In this document: one piece after another, positions 1-13,479 of the stretch
How the letters are laid out: each line of letters starts with the position of its first letter
How positions within the stretch are numbered: the stretch's first letter is position 1
Source of the DNA: a virus
DNA: 25,973 bases
Virus record (IMG/VR): IMGVR_UViG_3300025131_007785
Coordinates: 1-25,973 of that record
Reading direction: 5' to 3' (one strand)
Notes under the pieces: model-generated
Seen by the model: only the letters and a program-made list of their open reading frames with translations
What the model was told of the DNA's origin: nothing
Database searches by the model: none
Translations under genes and position numbers: made by a program

Positions 1-348
1 AGAGTACTCCTGCTCAAACCCAAACCAAGGCTCATCGTCCCGATATTTTTCCAGTACATCTAAGAACGCAGTCCTTCGATTAGAAACATGAGGCTCTCCC
101 AGTGCTGTCAACACTTCGCACAAAACGATAAGTGAATCCTCTGCATAGGGATGAGGATACGTTCTCACTGGCTTTAAAATACAGTCAGAGTCCGAACCCG
201 TGGCCTGGTGGGTCGAAGAGCCGTCAAAACTCCACGTTGGGGCATCATCTAAAGTAGGATCGAAACCAGGCACGACCTTTATCTTAGACCTAATTCCCCA
301 CGGCATGCCGCCGTCTATCCAAACATACTCTAGTTTATTGTACATCAT
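1..348 (-). CDS. Glutamine synthetase, class II (eukaryote-type), N-terminal part; runs off the window
   Basis: The first 116 residues are present and the gene continues beyond base 1. Translating from ATG at 348-346 gives VWIDGG near residue 10, then WSFDGSSTHQATGSDSD at about 39-55, ILKPVRTYPHP, and WFGFEQEYS at the window edge. These are hallmarks of the class II (GSII) beta-grasp domain and of the start of the catalytic domain, where the EQE glutamates bind metal. The family makes glutamine from glutamate, ammonia and ATP. The ATG overlaps the TAA of the upstream deoxyribosyltransferase-like gene (TAATG), which suggests translational coupling; a second ATG follows at once, so the exact first residue is uncertain. 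Supply of glutamine for nucleotide synthesis fits the neighbours, but that is inference. A GS-like ligase acting on another amine cannot be excluded from this fragment. Confidence 0.9.
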   Translation of the reverse strand, partial: MMYNKLEYVWIDGGMPWGIRSKIKVVPGFDPTLDDAPTWSFDGSSTHQATGSDSDCILKPVRTYPHPYAEDSLIVLCEVLTALGEPHVSNRRTAFLDVLEKYRDDEPWFGFEQEYS

Positions 349-2757: not shown

Positions 2758-3567
2758 TTATCTCTGGATGGACGGCACCCAATGTGTCATCCTACCATCC
2801 TTTGTTTTTTCCTTGACAACATCATTGCCGAGCGGATCGCTTCGCTGTCCATACACGGCAAATCGCTGACTGAACTCTCCTATTTTACCGTTCATGTCAG
2901 CATAAGTTTTAATTGTTGCACCGCCAGACTCAAAGCTCTCAACTAGGACCTTTCGAATTGACGTATTTAGTGCAGACATCTCATGTATATCTAAATCTGA
3001 CACTAAGCGATGAGGCGATATCTTAGCATTGTATAGCGCTTCAGCTTTTACATAGTTGCCGATACCAGACACAACGCCCTGATCCATAAGTGCCTGAGCG
3101 ATTGTCTTTGTCTTTTTTCTCATGAGATGCTCAGCAAATTTAAAGTCATCAATCTCCTCAGCAAGAAGATCTGGGCCTAAGGACTCCAGCTTGTCAATAA
3201 GTTGCTGTTTTCCCCGCACAAACTTAAGGGTCCCAAAATTTCTAGAATCAGTAAAAAATATTGATCCGTCATTTAAGACAAATTCAATGCGACTGTGCAG
3301 CTCATTCTTCTCATTTGTCCATGAACCTGTCATTCCTAACGTAGACCAAATGCTCCACTCGGCGTCCAATAGAAAGAATAAGAACTTACCGTGTACCCCG
3401 GCCCCTTGAATTCCAATCGGAGTCCACTCCATTATCTTGTCAAAGCCAGTGGGTGGGCCGTGCTTCTCATAGCGGCCGCTCAGTATCTTAATATCGACCA
3501 GCTTTCTATTCGAGACCCTCTTCGCGAGCTGGATACCGATTTGACGACACTCGGGACCCTCAGGCAT
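2758..3567 (-). CDS. Fpg/Nei-family DNA glycosylase/AP lyase with a zincless finger
   Basis: The 269-residue protein begins MPEGPE, whose Pro2 is the catalytic amine and Glu3 the acid of the Fpg/Nei family. Lys61 in GVHGKFLFF matches the catalytic beta-hairpin lysine. The helix-two-turn-helix spans about 157-186 (VVSGIGNYVKAEALY, Asn171). The C-terminal region 238-269 has the hairpin spacing of the DNA-binding finger, including GRMTHW with Arg259, but the zinc cysteines are absent, as in NEIL1 and plant-type enzymes. The family excises oxidised bases and cuts the abasic site. The start overlaps the upstream MBD4-like gene by 8 bases, so the two glycosylases are co-translated. Substrate choice (8-oxoG versus oxidised pyrimidines) cannot be decided here. 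Confidence 0.92.
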   Translation of the reverse strand: MPEGPECRQIGIQLAKRVSNRKLVDIKILSGRYEKHGPPTGFDKIMEWTPIGIQGAGVHGKFLFFLLDAEWSIWSTLGMTGSWTNEKNELHSRIEFVLNDGSIFFTDSRNFGTLKFVRGKQQLIDKLESLGPDLLAEEIDDFKFAEHLMRKKTKTIAQALMDQGVVSGIGNYVKAEALYNAKISPHRLVSDLDIHEMSALNTSIRKVLVESFESGGATIKTYADMNGKIGEFSQRFAVYGQRSDPLGNDVVKEKTKDGRMTHWVPSIQR

Positions 3568-3988
3568 CTAATTCATCCTTTAAAAAATTATGATAATCGT
3601 TTAGGGCGTGATCACTGGGCGCAACCTGCCGCCAGTCTCCCACGCAAAAAATATGCCACGCGTCGTCAGCATACTTCCCGCAACCATAAAGGTCCTTTGC
3701 GGTTGTCCAGTCTGCTTCTAAAAATTCATTAGAAAACCGGATCAATGTCTTAGCACGCTTACGCCACATACCTAGCGAGCGAAGCATGCCATGGAGATCT
3801 TCCTCTTGCGCAGTGGCAAGGCTTCTGGGAGCTGGATATCGTTCAAAAAGCCCATCAATTACCTTGTCAACCTGCTTTCGAGTCGTTAGATTTAAGAGCA
3901 GGCAGGCAACTAAAATTTTCCACGGGTCTGGCCATAAATCTTCCTGGATCAGGCCGTGTGGAGATTTTGGAGGTATCCAATCTTTCAT
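3560..3988 (-). CDS. MBD4-like HhH-GPD mismatch DNA glycosylase
   Basis: This 142-residue protein strongly recalls the glycosylase domain of vertebrate and plant MBD4. It has WIPPKSPHGLIQE and DPWKILVACLLLN at the N-terminus, a helix-hairpin-helix LYGCGKYADDA at about 100-110, then HIFCVGDWRQV and APSDHALNDYH. Asp126 in SDHALN corresponds to the MBD4 catalytic aspartate in EDHKLN. There is no Endo III-type catalytic lysine and no iron-sulphur cysteine cluster, so a monofunctional enzyme is expected. MBD4 removes T or U paired with G. The methyl-CpG-binding domain is absent and the protein is only the catalytic domain. It starts 9 bases after a strong AAGGAG and overlaps the AP-lyase gene downstream, a natural partner for cutting the abasic site. 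Confidence 0.85.
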   Translation of the reverse strand: MKDWIPPKSPHGLIQEDLWPDPWKILVACLLLNLTTRKQVDKVIDGLFERYPAPRSLATAQEEDLHGMLRSLGMWRKRAKTLIRFSNEFLEADWTTAKDLYGCGKYADDAWHIFCVGDWRQVAPSDHALNDYHNFLKDELDA

Positions 3989-4036
3989 TTCTCACTCCTT
4001 ACTTGAATAATACAGCAAGGAAAGAGTTTTTACATG

Positions 4037-4642
4037 CTATGCATAAAAATTAAATGCAATCCCAACCTCAACCTCTAGTCGCGGAGTTCCAATATGGTTT
4101 GCCAAATTGTGTTTAAGGGCCTCATTCGAATCTAAGAACCAATCGGCGTGGCCACGCTCGTGCACGATATCTAAAAAATAGTCCTTGTGCTTACCGCAGT
4201 TCAGAGCCATCATCTCGTAGACCTTGGTGTTCAGCCTCTCGGTCTCCTCAGCTGAAGCCTTTATCTCCTCAACCTTACCCTTTTCAAATGACGAGACGTC
4301 ATGAATCATGACAGTGGCATCGCTGTCCACATACCTCATCCCGTCCTGACCAAATGAAAAAAGAATTGCGCCACAGGACATAGCCTTTCCTGACACGATC
4401 GTAGCAATCGGAACATGTGCCGCCTTAATGGCGCTAATCATCGCCATCAGGCTATAAACCTGCCCACCATAAGAATCAATGACAACTGGTATCACCGTCT
4501 GGCCCGTATTATGTGCCTTAGATATTTCATCGGCAAATTTCTTAGCAGACGACTCATCAAACTTATTGACACGAATATAGACAGGTGAGTGCCTTAACTC
4601 AACTTCCTTAATGCGCGGATCAACCTTACTAACAATATTCAT
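4037..4642 (-). CDS. ClpP-like serine protease
   Basis: A 201-residue ClpP/crotonase-fold protease. The oxyanion-hole region is VVIDSYGGQVYS (about 54-65), the nucleophile is Ser89 in GKAMSCGA, the histidine is His114 in MIHDVS, and the aspartate is Asp167 in ADWFLDSNEA, all in ClpP order and spacing. I placed the start at ATG 4642-4640 because AGGAGT at 4649-4654 precedes it by 6 bases; an in-frame GTG at 4675 would add 11 residues but has no comparable site. The ribosome site overlaps the stop codon of the reductase gene. ClpP-like proteins occur in some T4-related phages. This one lies in the metabolic region and not beside capsid genes, so a prohead-protease role is less obvious. No ClpX/A partner is seen. 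Confidence 0.85.
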   Translation of the reverse strand: MNIVSKVDPRIKEVELRHSPVYIRVNKFDESSAKKFADEISKAHNTGQTVIPVVIDSYGGQVYSLMAMISAIKAAHVPIATIVSGKAMSCGAILFSFGQDGMRYVDSDATVMIHDVSSFEKGKVEEIKASAEETERLNTKVYEMMALNCGKHKDYFLDIVHERGHADWFLDSNEALKHNLANHIGTPRLEVEVGIAFNFYA

Positions 4643-4652
4643 TAATTTACTC

Positions 4653-7154
4653 CTACGAGCACTTAGACCAGCCACAGCTAGAGCATGTTATGCAACCCTC
4701 TTGATACGCAAATGACTCCATGGCGTTGCAGCCGGGACATGTCTTTTCAGTCGTAGTCTTCGTACCATTAATGATATAATTCTTGAGCACCCTAGCAACG
4801 ACCTTAGAAAATGAAAAAAGCTCCGCATCCTTATCCTTTTGTAGCTGCTCTACAACATACTGAATTGGGGCGCCATGACGCAGGCCTAAAGAGATCATTC
4901 GAGTAAATGACGAATAATTTGGATTATCAAAGAGTGAGACGATATTCTTAAGCATGACCTCATCGCCATTCTCACCAAATGAAAGATCATAGATAGAATT
5001 CATCGACTTACGAGGATGTTTCTTAATCTTACCCTCCTTGTACTTCCTAGGGATCTCAACGAACTCAGAAAGTCCGCCTATAACCTCGTACGGCTTATCG
5101 TTCATTAGGCCTATTAAAATAGTCCACTTCTCCCCCTGAATTGTAGCATGATGAATATGACAATGCAGGACATCAGGTCTCTTTGGAGCCGGATGTGATA
5201 TGAACTTATCGTCGCCCCTGTATTCGTTCCTCTTTTCAACCAAGACGCCACTGCGGCATTCAGCGCGATAGACGGTGACGCCCTTGCAGCCCGATTCCCA
5301 GCCGGCGACATAAATTTTCTTAATAGTATCGACGGATGTGTTTTCAGGCACATTTGTAGTGTTGGATATAGCGTGGCACACCCAGCGCTGTGCAGCAGCT
5401 TGAACCTTGACCTTCTGAACCCAGTCAATATTATTCGCAGTGGCATCGGCATACGGACTAGCGGCTATCAGCTCCTCAGGAGAACCGGTAGCTGACACAT
5501 GTTCCATCCACTCCCTAAACTTGTGATGATAGACGTCATACTCTTTCCACCTATCCCCAATGTCATCCGTAAAGTCATGCTCCTCACCATCAGCGACTTT
5601 ACGACGACGAGTGTAATGCAACATGAAAGCGGGCTCGATCCCAGAGGTGGTCTGTGTAAGGGTCGAAACGCTGCCGGCGGGCGCTGTGGTGGTGATCGCA
5701 ATATTTCTTCGACCCCAGCGCTGGTTCATCTGACGTGCCTTATAAGCGGTTGATTCCGGCGTCATCTCATCGATGGAATCAAAAATTCTCTCGAGAAATG
5801 GGTGACCAGCCTCCATGTCAGCATCGTGAACCTCAAACGCTCCCCGCTCCTTTGCCAGGACCATCGATGAAATATATGCATGAGTGGAAAGCCAGCGATA
5901 AATCTTTTCAGTCTCCTCAATACTTTGCTGGCTGCCGTATCGGATACCCAGCATCGCCAATACATCGCCTAGGCCAGTAATCCCCAAACCCGTCCTTCGT
6001 CCACGGAGGGCCTGGGTCCTAATCTTAGTCCACAGCTCAATCTCAATAGCCTTGGTAGTAATAGATTCAGGATCGCTTGCGATCTTAGCCAAAATAGCGT
6101 CAATCTGCTCGACCTCTAGGTCAATCATGTCGTCCATAAGACGCTGGGCCTTTTGCACGGTCTCACCAAAATGAGCATAATCAAAACATGCTGAATCTGT
6201 CCAGGCATTCTCCACGAAAGAAGTAAGATTAACCAGCATCAGCCTACACGAGTCGTAAGGGGATAAGATTATTTCTCCACACGGATTCGTAGAGACCGAT
6301 CCGAATCCCTGATCCTGATAAATGTCTGAAGGGGTATTCCTCTTAGCATTGTCCCAAAATAAAAGGCCGGGCTCGGCTGAGGCGTGTGCAGACACAATCA
6401 TTTCATCCCAGAGTTCCCTAGCGTTAACCTGCTCTGTAATCATGTGCTCTACATCACGATCCACTGGAAATCGAAGCTGGACGTCGGCATCGGACGACAC
6501 TGCGTTCATAAACTCGTCAGTTAAACGAATCGATATATTATCGCCAGTTACCCTAGTTAGCTCACGCTTAATCTTTATAAAGTCGCTAATTTGTGGATGA
6601 TGAACAGATATTGTCAGCATCAGAGCACCGCGGCGGCCACCCTGGGCTACCTCACGACAGGAATTAGAGAACCGGTCCATGAAGACCTCGATACCGTCAG
6701 TGGTGCGAGCTGCGTTCGCGGTGTTGAGTCCCTTAGGTCGGATCGTTGAGAGGTCAAAGCCTACGCCTCCTCGGCGTTTAGCAATCTGCACGAGCTCCTG
6801 ATCGCTCTTTAGAATACCACCATAAGAATCCTCAGGGGCATCGATCACAAAACAGTTAGAAATAGACTGAATCTGATATGGATTTCCAATACCGGCCATA
6901 GGCGAACCCTGTGGGACCACGTGCCTAAAGCCGTCCAGCAAGTCAAAAATTTCCTGCTCAGACATGGGATTATCGTATTTACTTTCAATACGATAGAATT
7001 CTGCAGCTAATCGCCTGTGCATATCTGCAGGGGTTGCCTCGAGAATCTCACCATTCGAATCTGTGAGGGCGTATTTAGTAACAAAGATGCTTGCAGCAAG
7101 TTCATCTCCGTTAAAATACTCTAAAGACTCCCTACATGCTCTCTTCTTATTCAC
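4653..7154 (-). CDS. nrdJ: Class II (adenosylcobalamin-dependent) ribonucleotide reductase
   Basis: An 833-residue protein that reduces ribonucleotides to deoxyribonucleotides. Key residues, numbered from the chosen start, are Cys101 in SNCF, the thiyl-radical Cys292 with Asn290 and Glu294 in NPCGE, and Cys303 in DSCRL. The 11-residue gap between the last two equals that of well-studied NrdJ enzymes. SGIEPAF, GCKGVTVYR and a terminal CPGC...CSSCGWSKC zinc-ribbon-like tail for disulfide exchange complete the class II picture. A GTG at 7169 overlaps the helicase stop, but the GTG at 7154 lies 6 bases after AGGGAG (7161-7166) and is preferred. The enzyme is oxygen independent and needs B12 from the host. 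No intein or split is seen. Confidence 0.93.
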   Translation of the reverse strand: MNKKRACRESLEYFNGDELAASIFVTKYALTDSNGEILEATPADMHRRLAAEFYRIESKYDNPMSEQEIFDLLDGFRHVVPQGSPMAGIGNPYQIQSISNCFVIDAPEDSYGGILKSDQELVQIAKRRGGVGFDLSTIRPKGLNTANAARTTDGIEVFMDRFSNSCREVAQGGRRGALMLTISVHHPQISDFIKIKRELTRVTGDNISIRLTDEFMNAVSSDADVQLRFPVDRDVEHMITEQVNARELWDEMIVSAHASAEPGLLFWDNAKRNTPSDIYQDQGFGSVSTNPCGEIILSPYDSCRLMLVNLTSFVENAWTDSACFDYAHFGETVQKAQRLMDDMIDLEVEQIDAILAKIASDPESITTKAIEIELWTKIRTQALRGRRTGLGITGLGDVLAMLGIRYGSQQSIEETEKIYRWLSTHAYISSMVLAKERGAFEVHDADMEAGHPFLERIFDSIDEMTPESTAYKARQMNQRWGRRNIAITTTAPAGSVSTLTQTTSGIEPAFMLHYTRRRKVADGEEHDFTDDIGDRWKEYDVYHHKFREWMEHVSATGSPEELIAASPYADATANNIDWVQKVKVQAAAQRWVCHAISNTTNVPENTSVDTIKKIYVAGWESGCKGVTVYRAECRSGVLVEKRNEYRGDDKFISHPAPKRPDVLHCHIHHATIQGEKWTILIGLMNDKPYEVIGGLSEFVEIPRKYKEGKIKKHPRKSMNSIYDLSFGENGDEVMLKNIVSLFDNPNYSSFTRMISLGLRHGAPIQYVVEQLQKDKDAELFSFSKVVARVLKNYIINGTKTTTEKTCPGCNAMESFAYQEGCITCSSCGWSKCS

Positions 7155-7165
7155 TCTAATCTCCC

Positions 7166-8557
7166 TCACACGACTTTTCTATCCTGAGCTACCTCACGCC
7201 ACTTTTTTCTGAGAAGCTCTTTCATGTCGGCTTCAGATTCCCGTTTTTTATTATCTAGCTCTACGACTTCGCTCTCTGTTAATGTACGGATTTTAGACTG
7301 CGCTGTATCGATTTTAATTGGAAAAATCAAGCCGTCGCGACCGGCACGGTTCTTAGCGACGAAGAGCCTGCCGGCGCCGTCTGCCTTTTCGTGGGTCTTG
7401 CGTGACAATGAAAGGACAACGTCAGCGACCATCGCCTTACCGTAGGCCTCAGACATATTCTCGAGGCCGACGATGTCGCTCTGCGCTGAGGAGCGATTAG
7501 CCTGTGAGGCTGTCCAAATCGGAATTTTTAGTTCCATTGCCATATTCCTAAGCTCCTCGTAGATTAACTTAAGCTCATGGCGAAGGGAGTCATACGATCG
7601 CGTAGAGCGCATGATGTCTGCATAGTCGATAATAAGCACATCAGGCTTAAAATTCTTAAGTGCCAGCTTCTCGATGTGATTCCTAATCGTCACCACCGAA
7701 GCGGAGCCAGTTGGATACTCCTTAATGATAAGCCGACCCAAGTCGAGTCCCTTATACTTTTCAATCACCTCTTCTTTTCTTTCAAGAAGCTCGTCAATAG
7801 GGATATCCGAAATGTGTGAATCATACCGCAATCCTGTTGAGACCTCTGACAGCTCGAAAGTATAGTGAACTACATTCTTTTCGTTCATCAAGGCTGTCGC
7901 ACCGGCCTGGACCAAGAAGTGGGACTTTCCAACTCCCGTATTGGCGACGACGACACCAATCTCGCCCTTGGCAAGACCTCCATTCATGACCTTTCTGTCA
8001 TCCAGCTCCCTAATTCCAGTCGGACAGGCATGCCTGACAATATGAACAAACCTGCTCTCCATGTCCTCAATGAACTCATGGCCGATAGAGGGTGTCGTTC
8101 CAACTGTCAGGGCTTCCCGTATAATGTTAATAACATTCTCATCCTGCCCAGTGGCAATCATATCTACGGCCTGCTCGAGCGCAGATCGCATTGCCTGCTT
8201 TCGACAAAAGTCTAAAGACTTATCCTTGACGTACTGAATGTCGCCCATGTCTGGATTCAGCTTAATTCGCTGTAGGTACTCAACAATCTTATCACGAAGA
8301 ATTACATCGGTCCCCGCACGAAGATCATCCCTAATAATTGTCACGAGCAACTGTAGCGTGGGAAAAGTTCGGTACTTCGTATAATAATCAAAATATTTCT
8401 GGGACAGGAACTTCAGGTGTTTAAGGTCAAAATAGTCGATCTTAATGACCTCAGACATCTGCTCAGCCCACTGGTGATCTGACAGGAGGGCCTGCATAAT
8501 TTTCTCTTGAAATGATGTGCCGTGCTCAGCAAAACTAGGGTTACTCAATGATTCCAT
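7166..8557 (-). CDS. DnaB/gp41-type replicative DNA helicase
   Basis: A 463-residue RecA-fold hexameric helicase. An N-terminal helical part (about 1-160) precedes Walker A ANTGVGKS at 205-212, the catalytic glutamate in TFELS (Glu235), Walker B VLIIDYAD with Asp311, SQANR at 351-355, and the arginine-finger region KNRAG at 402-406. These match DnaB and T4 gp41, which unwind the fork 5'-3'. No primase is encoded within the window. The gene ends one base-step from the reductase region (TGA inside GTGTGAGGGAG) and starts just beyond the exonuclease stop, inside the replication run. Confidence 0.92.
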   Translation of the reverse strand: MESLSNPSFAEHGTSFQEKIMQALLSDHQWAEQMSEVIKIDYFDLKHLKFLSQKYFDYYTKYRTFPTLQLLVTIIRDDLRAGTDVILRDKIVEYLQRIKLNPDMGDIQYVKDKSLDFCRKQAMRSALEQAVDMIATGQDENVINIIREALTVGTTPSIGHEFIEDMESRFVHIVRHACPTGIRELDDRKVMNGGLAKGEIGVVVANTGVGKSHFLVQAGATALMNEKNVVHYTFELSEVSTGLRYDSHISDIPIDELLERKEEVIEKYKGLDLGRLIIKEYPTGSASVVTIRNHIEKLALKNFKPDVLIIDYADIMRSTRSYDSLRHELKLIYEELRNMAMELKIPIWTASQANRSSAQSDIVGLENMSEAYGKAMVADVVLSLSRKTHEKADGAGRLFVAKNRAGRDGLIFPIKIDTAQSKIRTLTESEVVELDNKKRESEADMKELLRKKWREVAQDRKVV

Positions 8558-12279: not shown

Positions 12280-13479
12280 CTAAAAGCCAGAAACATCAAC
12301 ATAGAATGGAACTTCAAAGCCATCTATCTGCATGTGGCAGTTGGCCAGCTTTCGCAGTGTTTCCATGCTGTTCGAATGAACATCGAAAATTATGGCATCA
12401 TGTAGGATAAAAATAGGAACGATTTTATCTCCCTTCAGTCGGGTGACGATCTGCTGGAATCCGTGCATTGCAACATCTACCCCTGTCGACTGAATAAAGT
12501 TATTATAGAGTATATGGGATGACTTGTCAGTCGCCAGCATCTTTCGACCGAAGTGATTGGAGATCGATCCGGTCTCCACGGCGTCTTTCAGCAGCTCCAT
12601 CGACACCTTCTTAACATCAAAAGCCCGTGAGATCCTTTCAATAATATCCCCGGCGGCTTCGAGGTTGACAGACAATTGAGAGGCGAGGCGCTTGCGGCCG
12701 GCACCATAGATGACTGAGAGGCAGGCAAGCTTAACGGCACTCCTGGGATATCGATTCTCAAAGACTGTCCTAGAGAGCTGCGTGTAGATATCCCTTTCTG
12801 GAACCATACCCCCAAGCGCAGCGGCAATACGTGCCTCCAGGGAGACAAAGTCCACCTGCACTATGTGACCGCCGTCGAACCTAGACTGAATTATGGATCG
12901 AAAATCTCTCTTGAGGCGAAGAATCTGTGGACCCGAACGTTCAGTCAGGCGACCTGTCCTAGAGCCAACCTGGTTGTATCGCACAAGCGGCGCAAATCCG
13001 GTGTCGTCTGGTCGGAATGACGCAATGACAGATCGCTGGCCAGGGGAAATGCTGCCCTGCATAAAATTTTGAAGAGTGACCGAATTAATGGACGCGCTCT
13101 CAAGGGCTCTCAGGAGGTCCCTGGTGGTCGCGAAATAAGAATGATAGTATTCCACCATCCCGCGCTCCAGGATGTCCCAGGAGTCATTCCTGAGCCTCCT
13201 AAGGTAGTCCTGGTACACATCGCCGGGCATCATCCACTTTAGGGGCACAGACTTGAGTGGCGCGACCGTCGCGGCGGCGCGAAGAAACTGCTGTGGGGGG
13301 CTGAGGTCAATCTCTAAACCGGAGACTGCGGCTAGGTCCTCGACGCGGAGAAGGGAGCTGGGATCACCCACTGTCCACGCGCCAGGGGGTGGTGTGGACT
13401 CACTCGTCACAGAATCATCACATGAGAATGTAATCCCACACTTTCCGTCGACCAACCTGGATGAAATGTGCAACAGCAT
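12280..13479 (-). CDS. Family A DNA polymerase, polymerase domain only, altered motif C
   Basis: The 399-residue protein is the thumb/palm/fingers part of Pol I. SRTGRLTERSGPQ at about 173-185 precedes motif A VDFVSLEARIAAAL with Asp210 and Glu215. Motif B holds Arg246, Lys250 and Tyr258 in RSAVKLACLSVIYG, with Leu254 at the usual Phe position. Motif C reads LHDAIIFDV (His360, Asp361, Ala362), so the usual HDE is HDA while both key aspartates remain. No 3'-5' exonuclease domain is present and the frame has no room for one before the upstream gene. The 5' nuclease is supplied by a separate gene. No Shine-Dalgarno sequence precedes ATG, but TATAAT lies 9 bases upstream, so the message may be leaderless. 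Either a replicative or a specialised repair polymerase is possible. Confidence 0.88.
   Translation of the reverse strand: MLLHISSRLVDGKCGITFSCDDSVTSESTPPPGAWTVGDPSSLLRVEDLAAVSGLEIDLSPPQQFLRAAATVAPLKSVPLKWMMPGDVYQDYLRRLRNDSWDILERGMVEYYHSYFATTRDLLRALESASINSVTLQNFMQGSISPGQRSVIASFRPDDTGFAPLVRYNQVGSRTGRLTERSGPQILRLKRDFRSIIQSRFDGGHIVQVDFVSLEARIAAALGGMVPERDIYTQLSRTVFENRYPRSAVKLACLSVIYGAGRKRLASQLSVNLEAAGDIIERISRAFDVKKVSMELLKDAVETGSISNHFGRKMLATDKSSHILYNNFIQSTGVDVAMHGFQQIVTRLKGDKIVPIFILHDAIIFDVHSNSMETLRKLANCHMQIDGFEVPFYVDVSGF

Follow-up and report, generated by a model that had tools for sequence, protein, structure and literature searches.

We analysed a 25,973-bp virus fragment (IMG/VR record IMGVR_UViG_3300025131_007785; "the window" below denotes this whole stretch of DNA), whose first 11,207 bases are matched at 99.99% by a second contig running 5.6 kb further left. 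An intact reading frame of 142 amino acids lies on the minus strand at positions 3560-3988. It starts with ATG, has a Shine-Dalgarno-like AAGGAG upstream (3995-4000, minus strand), and encodes an MBD4-type HhH-GPD glycosylase, identified by phmmer, a structural model and invariant residues. The protein is a reduced relative of human MBD4, whose role is the repair of deaminated methylcytosine. It comprises the catalytic domain only: the reading frame opens at the start of this domain, with a separate gene upstream and the methyl-CpG-binding domain absent.

The gene is paired with that of a MutM/Fpg (H2TH) glycosylase/AP lyase (2758-3567, minus strand; Pfam H2TH, PF06831, 1.6e-19; Fapy_DNA_glyco, 3.7e-14), whose start overlaps it by 8 bp. 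The MutM/Fpg protein begins with MPEGPE and contains the H2TH domain; the four-cysteine C-terminal zinc finger is absent, and the tail DGR(M/T)THWVPxxQ is found instead. Across the relatives the zincless tail DGRTTHWVPxxQ is conserved in phage MutM/Fpg proteins, which mostly start with PE. In the fetched loci MutM/Fpg is the closest conserved neighbour of the MBD4-type gene: it is found on the same strand in 29 loci, at a median distance of 31 bp, and in about ten of these its start and the MBD4-type stop overlap, just as they do in the window. Members of the MutM family are AP lyases, and the pair could therefore perform base removal followed by strand cleavage.

The five genes described next are likewise on the minus strand. 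To the left lie a MazG/dUTPase_2-like nucleotide pyrophosphohydrolase (2141-2518; PF08761, 1e-4; phrog_12184, 1.4e-19), which is a neighbour in 24 loci, a fusion of pyrophosphohydrolase-like and nucleotidase/HAD-like parts (1201-2166; PF06941, 0.0015; PF08761, 0.0065; phrog_420) and a nucleoside 2-deoxyribosyltransferase-like gene (348-785; PF05014, 1.1e-16). To the right are a ClpP-like protease (4037-4675; PF00574, 7.6e-23) and the ribonucleotide reductase (RNR) large chain (4653-7169; PF02867, 8e-90), syntenic neighbours in 34 and 39 loci, respectively; in the fetched loci the MBD4-type gene is also in synteny with a DnaB helicase and with pyrophosphohydrolases. A glutamine-synthetase-like gene (1-348, minus strand) runs off the left end of the window, and is present whole at L001:9641-10657. 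The reading frame at 12280-13479 encodes a family-A DNA polymerase of 399 amino acids, short for a complete polymerase. No RNA families or tRNAs were found in the window.

Assignment to the MBD4 lineage and active-site residues

Fifteen MBD4 entries head the phmmer list against all PDB sequences (6e-39 to 4e-37), the top match covering query residues 2-138 without gaps (6.2e-39). Endonuclease III (EndoIII, Nth) is the next family, at 4e-5 over 65 residues, and Mig gives an E-value of 0.0066. Judged by sequence comparison, the resemblance to MBD4 far exceeds chance. An earlier sequence-only reading had named the product an MBD4-like mismatch glycosylase on the strength of several segments, including GCGKYADD and SDHALNDYH; these are all present. 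General profiles are less specific: Pfam detects only HhH-GPD (7.2e-8), the best NCBIfam model is nth at 47 bits, far under its 212-bit cut-off, and no PHROG family matches. The protein has just three cysteines and the CX6CX2CX5C motif is absent; it therefore lacks the Fe-S loop, as that reading had held.

The AlphaFold model of the phage glycosylase, built from 54 viral sequences, has a pLDDT of 96. Its sixteen best Foldseek matches among solved structures are all MBD4 (TM 0.93-0.97), with VIA-align Z scores of 24-25, and it superposes on the human MBD4 catalytic domain with Z 25.3 and 0.9 Å over 141 residues at 43% identity. Other families come after MBD4 (Mig, Z 14.3; EndoIII, Z 13). The solved structural matches include MBD4 complexes with 5-hydroxymethyluracil (5hmU).

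The active site is conserved throughout the viral family. In MBD4, Gln449 and Tyr540 bind the thymine edge and the catalytic Asp560 primes the water molecule (PMC12073362). None of the 69 aligned viral homologues departs from Asp560 or Tyr540 at the equivalent positions, and each of the 68 covering the site has Gln449, the remaining one having a gap; the equivalents of Asn467, Arg512, Leu563 and Tyr566 are also invariant among the 69. The Tyr540 equivalent occupies the place of the lysine of bifunctional EndoIII, and the AP-lyase lysine is absent. The enzyme should therefore be monofunctional.

Human Arg468 is the mismatch-sensing finger, and in EndoIII and MutY this position is Gln. The viral family has Leu (44), Gln (24) or Met (1) here and never Arg (n=69). 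The window protein carries Leu, together with Ala at the position of Lys562, which is mostly Ala or Glu across the family. In human MBD4, Arg468 is required for activity, and with Gln or Leu in its place little or none of that activity is left; other glycosylases function with a Leu, Gln, Tyr or Asn wedge (PMC12073362). Since the finger is replaced in every viral copy, the T:G specificity of MBD4 cannot be assumed for them: the viral enzymes either read the mismatch in another way or have a different specificity.

Phylogenetic analysis separates the viral set and human MBD4 from the Nth, MutY and Mig-like rows with support 89/67, rising to 100/99 once the two longest outgroup rows are removed. 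Sequence, structure and tree thus agree with the earlier placement of the protein with MBD4 and away from EndoIII/AlkA-like enzymes, and we regard its membership of the MBD4 catalytic-domain lineage as settled. It is not MBD4 proper, because the Arg finger and the methyl-CpG-binding domain are both missing. An ordinary EndoIII is ruled out by the E-value of 4e-5, the nth score of 47 bits (cut-off 212), the Tyr at the Lys position and the Z score of 13. Two of the weak phage matches H9-H16 (L031 and L032) are real EndoIII.

The phage protein has in common with the human and mouse MBD4 glycosylase domain the full-length match, the Gln449/Tyr540/Asp560 pocket and the lack of both Fe-S cluster and AP-lyase lysine; it differs in the missing methyl-CpG-binding domain, the changes at Arg468 and Lys562 and the pairing of its gene with MutM. 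With Nth it shares the HhH-GPD fold, but not the catalytic Lys or the Fe-S cluster. The T:G glycosylases of the Mig.MthI type belong to the same superfamily and follow the same logic of a T:G enzyme beside a cytosine-methylating gene, although the structural match to Mig itself reaches only Z 14 and the phage protein has no Fe-S cluster. On plasmids of Haloplanus and Thermus, Mig-type HhH-GPD genes (L135:2908-3552 and L136:2869-3576) lie close to genes for DNA cytosine methyltransferases; unlike the phage enzyme, their products carry an Fe-S motif in the C-terminal part and have Lys as the wedge residue.

Viral relatives and their distribution

An alignment-based scan found relatives in at least 420 viral contigs, the best 80 of which were retained. 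The MBD4-type gene is thus not rare in phages, contrary to the impression of the sequence-only reading. Our searches found no published description of a phage MBD4, and existing annotations of the family read ENDO3c, endonuclease III or hypothetical. Cultured carriers include AXL_1 (AXL1), IVIA-DoCa6, YB23 and Donnerlittchen, whose copies are about 45% identical to that of the window, and cyanophage S-TIM54, with 34%.

Within the largest viral clade of the tree, human MBD4 branches with L085 and L092, two viral sequences (support 97/94); L092 has a gene order in common with the window's phage. A viral origin of human MBD4 was considered and not adopted: phage monophyly remains compatible with the data in the AU test (p 0.32), and the human sequence is the only eukaryotic one in the tree. 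It seems unlikely to us that the MBD4 type is a large, mainly viral family kept for repair of deaminated 5-methylcytosine (5mC) or 5-hydroxymethylcytosine (5hmC) in phages whose cytosine is fully modified, from which the eukaryotic domain was acquired.

Among 396 Actinomycetota genomes there was one clear copy only, in an Actinomarina MAG with cellular-looking neighbours, and a scan of 85,000 genomes with narrow patterns returned the same single copy. This gene (L133:4959-5348, uncultured Actinomarina MAG) groups with cyanophage-type viral sequences and is therefore probably phage-derived. In the viral structure library the sole clear and close match was the HhH-GPD protein U5KBB0 (BFVD) of Clostera anastomosis granulovirus A (TM 0.92, 37% identity); an MBD4-type domain seems to occur in an insect virus as well.

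Association with modified cytosine and proposed function

Residue 177 of ThyA (E. coli numbering) distinguishes dUMP use (Asn) from dCMP use (Asp), and Asp177 in ThyA homologues marks phage contigs with modified cytosine (PMC8670742). A thymidylate synthase (TS)-family gene is present in 20 of 45 MBD4-positive viral records, and all 20 carry an Asp-type one; two of these contigs (482 and 161 kb) carry an Asn-type TS as well. The TS is Asp-type in all of the isolates AXL_1, Donnerlittchen, IVIA-DoCa6, S-TIM54 and YB23, as are all 14 genes of the only TS cluster found in the fetched flanks of MBD4-type genes. For the control, DNA patterns served to sample viral contigs of either TS type: MBD4-like genes occurred in 10 of 46 Asp-type and 0 of 50 Asn-type contigs (Fisher p 3.6e-4, for contigs that are not phylogenetically independent). 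Many phages with the Asp-type enzyme do without the gene, including 36 of the 46 control contigs and most Bradleyvirinae with a related TS.

The 26-kb window and its 5.6-kb extension, a genome fragment, contain no TS-family gene and one ThyX-like gene; the close relatives G002 and G003 have an Asp177 TS. Sister phages drawn by RNR carry the MBD4-type gene in 13 of 32 cases, but the three TS genes in this set are Asp-type with or without MBD4, so it cannot separate the two. C5-methyltransferases were rejected as a general source of 5mC because they are rare (4 of 50 records). In G003, a gene with a 5-hmdU-DNA-kinase-like helical domain (PF18723) stands beside a C5-methyltransferase gene (L024:12680-15312), about 12 kb from the MBD4-type gene; genes for dUTPase, thymidine kinase and dCMP deaminase are close by.

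A published relative is gp65 of AXL1, which, with its Xp12 homologue (Bradleyvirinae), belongs to the viral family and has the catalytic Asp and Tyr; unlike the window protein, the two lack the WxPPxSP start. In AXL1 the gene lies in an operon with the Asp177-type TS, one gene standing between them, with dCMP deaminase and DHFR behind. The protein was published as an ENDO3c-domain protein with an unclear active site and reported elsewhere in Xp12 only, a phage with 5mC for all cytosine; AXL1 DNA is cut by 5 of 31 restriction enzymes, three of these with A/T-only sites (PMC9206674; for Xp12 DNA see also PMC7653180). Together, these data support the view that the MBD4-type gene goes with phages whose cytosine is known or predicted to be modified, in line with the modified-cytosine guess of the sequence-only reading, which the control counts and the AXL1/Xp12 context now favour.

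The ThyX-like gene of the window's phage (L001:10707-11639) lies 0.7 kb left of window base 1, and its product has RGRVGWAYNVESQMP in place of the usual ThyX motif. Divergent ThyX-like proteins (L531-L541, L545-L552) are about 300-350 amino acids long, and most have RHRAGSFAAQCTGDR where the ThyX motif RHRxxSxNExSxR would stand. The version encoded by the window's phage shares just about 25% identity with them, and a sequence search brought up no PDB relative for it. In most of the large MBD4-positive contigs that lack an Asp-type TS a divergent ThyX is present, and the two enzyme types occur together in 0 of 45 MBD4-positive records (p 2e-5). Among the phages sampled, divergent ThyX is limited to one lineage, where it is also present in sisters without MBD4. 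As a lead only, it might replace the dCMP-type enzyme, and is possibly a flavin-dependent dCMP-modifying enzyme.

Because the phages that carry the gene are typically ones predicted to replace cytosine with a modified form, it probably repairs damage to which modified genomes are prone. Our preferred and, we think, probable reading is a monofunctional glycosylase of the MBD4 lineage with putative T:G or 5hmU:G activity, which would repair modified cytosine after its deamination and rely on MutM for the AP-lyase step; the window's own phage would then have modified cytosine too. The glycosylase would flip out the pyrimidine, and the Asp560 equivalent would hydrolyse its glycosidic bond. Its main job is probably removal of T or 5hmU opposite guanine, the expected deamination products of 5-methyl- and 5-hydroxymethylcytosine in cytosine-replacing phage genomes. 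T and 5hmU opposite G are not removed by ordinary uracil glycosylase. The MutM/Fpg AP lyase, product of the overlapping gene that follows, would probably cut the abasic site, and the gap would then be filled.

The main rival is general uracil repair, in which the enzyme would remove U arising from deaminated ordinary cytosine (U:G) or misincorporated U, the link with modified cytosine being a side effect of lineage. MBD4 is established to take U as well, dUTPase/MazG-type genes lie nearby, many relatives belong to one marine phage lineage, and several large MBD4-positive contigs (for example of 284 and 236 kb) have no Asp-type TS. We nevertheless hold this explanation to be rather doubtful: the gene is found with Asp-type but not Asn-type TS in the control contigs, the association recurs in phages as unlike as Bradleyvirinae, S-TIM54 and the 482- and 161-kb contigs with both TS types, and common uracil glycosylases already deal with plain uracil.

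Less probable still is a changed specificity, whereby loss of the Arg finger leaves the opposite G unread and the substrate is a different pyrimidine lesion or a base that carries further modification. The residues at the Arg468 and Lys562 positions, the Gln finger of EndoIII and MutY and the kinase-like and C5-methyltransferase genes near the MBD4-type gene of G003 are compatible with it; the base-reading pocket is unaltered, however, and Leu, Gln, Tyr or Asn wedges work in other glycosylases. That the glycosylase damages host DNA or reverses a host deaminase-type defence is very improbable. Hosts do use glycosylases in the reverse direction against 5hmC phages (Brig3, PMC13160076), and Brig enzymes are likewise DNA glycosylases tied to the modified cytosine of phage DNA, but they are host-encoded and attack the modified base itself. 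The phage gene belongs to a block of replication and nucleotide genes that includes MutM and RNR, rather than to a host-takeover region; no deaminase partner was found, and nothing supported the earlier suggestion that it counters a host deaminase.

In a phage with all cytosine methylated or hydroxymethylated, deamination to T or 5hmU is expected and escapes uracil glycosylase. On the preferred reading of modified-cytosine repair, the MBD4-type gene would be the missing repair step, paralleling Vsr and Mig beside bacterial methyltransferases. Its presence would also mark phages whose cytosine is modified, and a protein annotated so far in general terms would gain a name. MBD4 is now supplied with relatives in prokaryotic viruses, whose natural Arg468 replacements provide a direct test of how MBD4 reads a mismatch.
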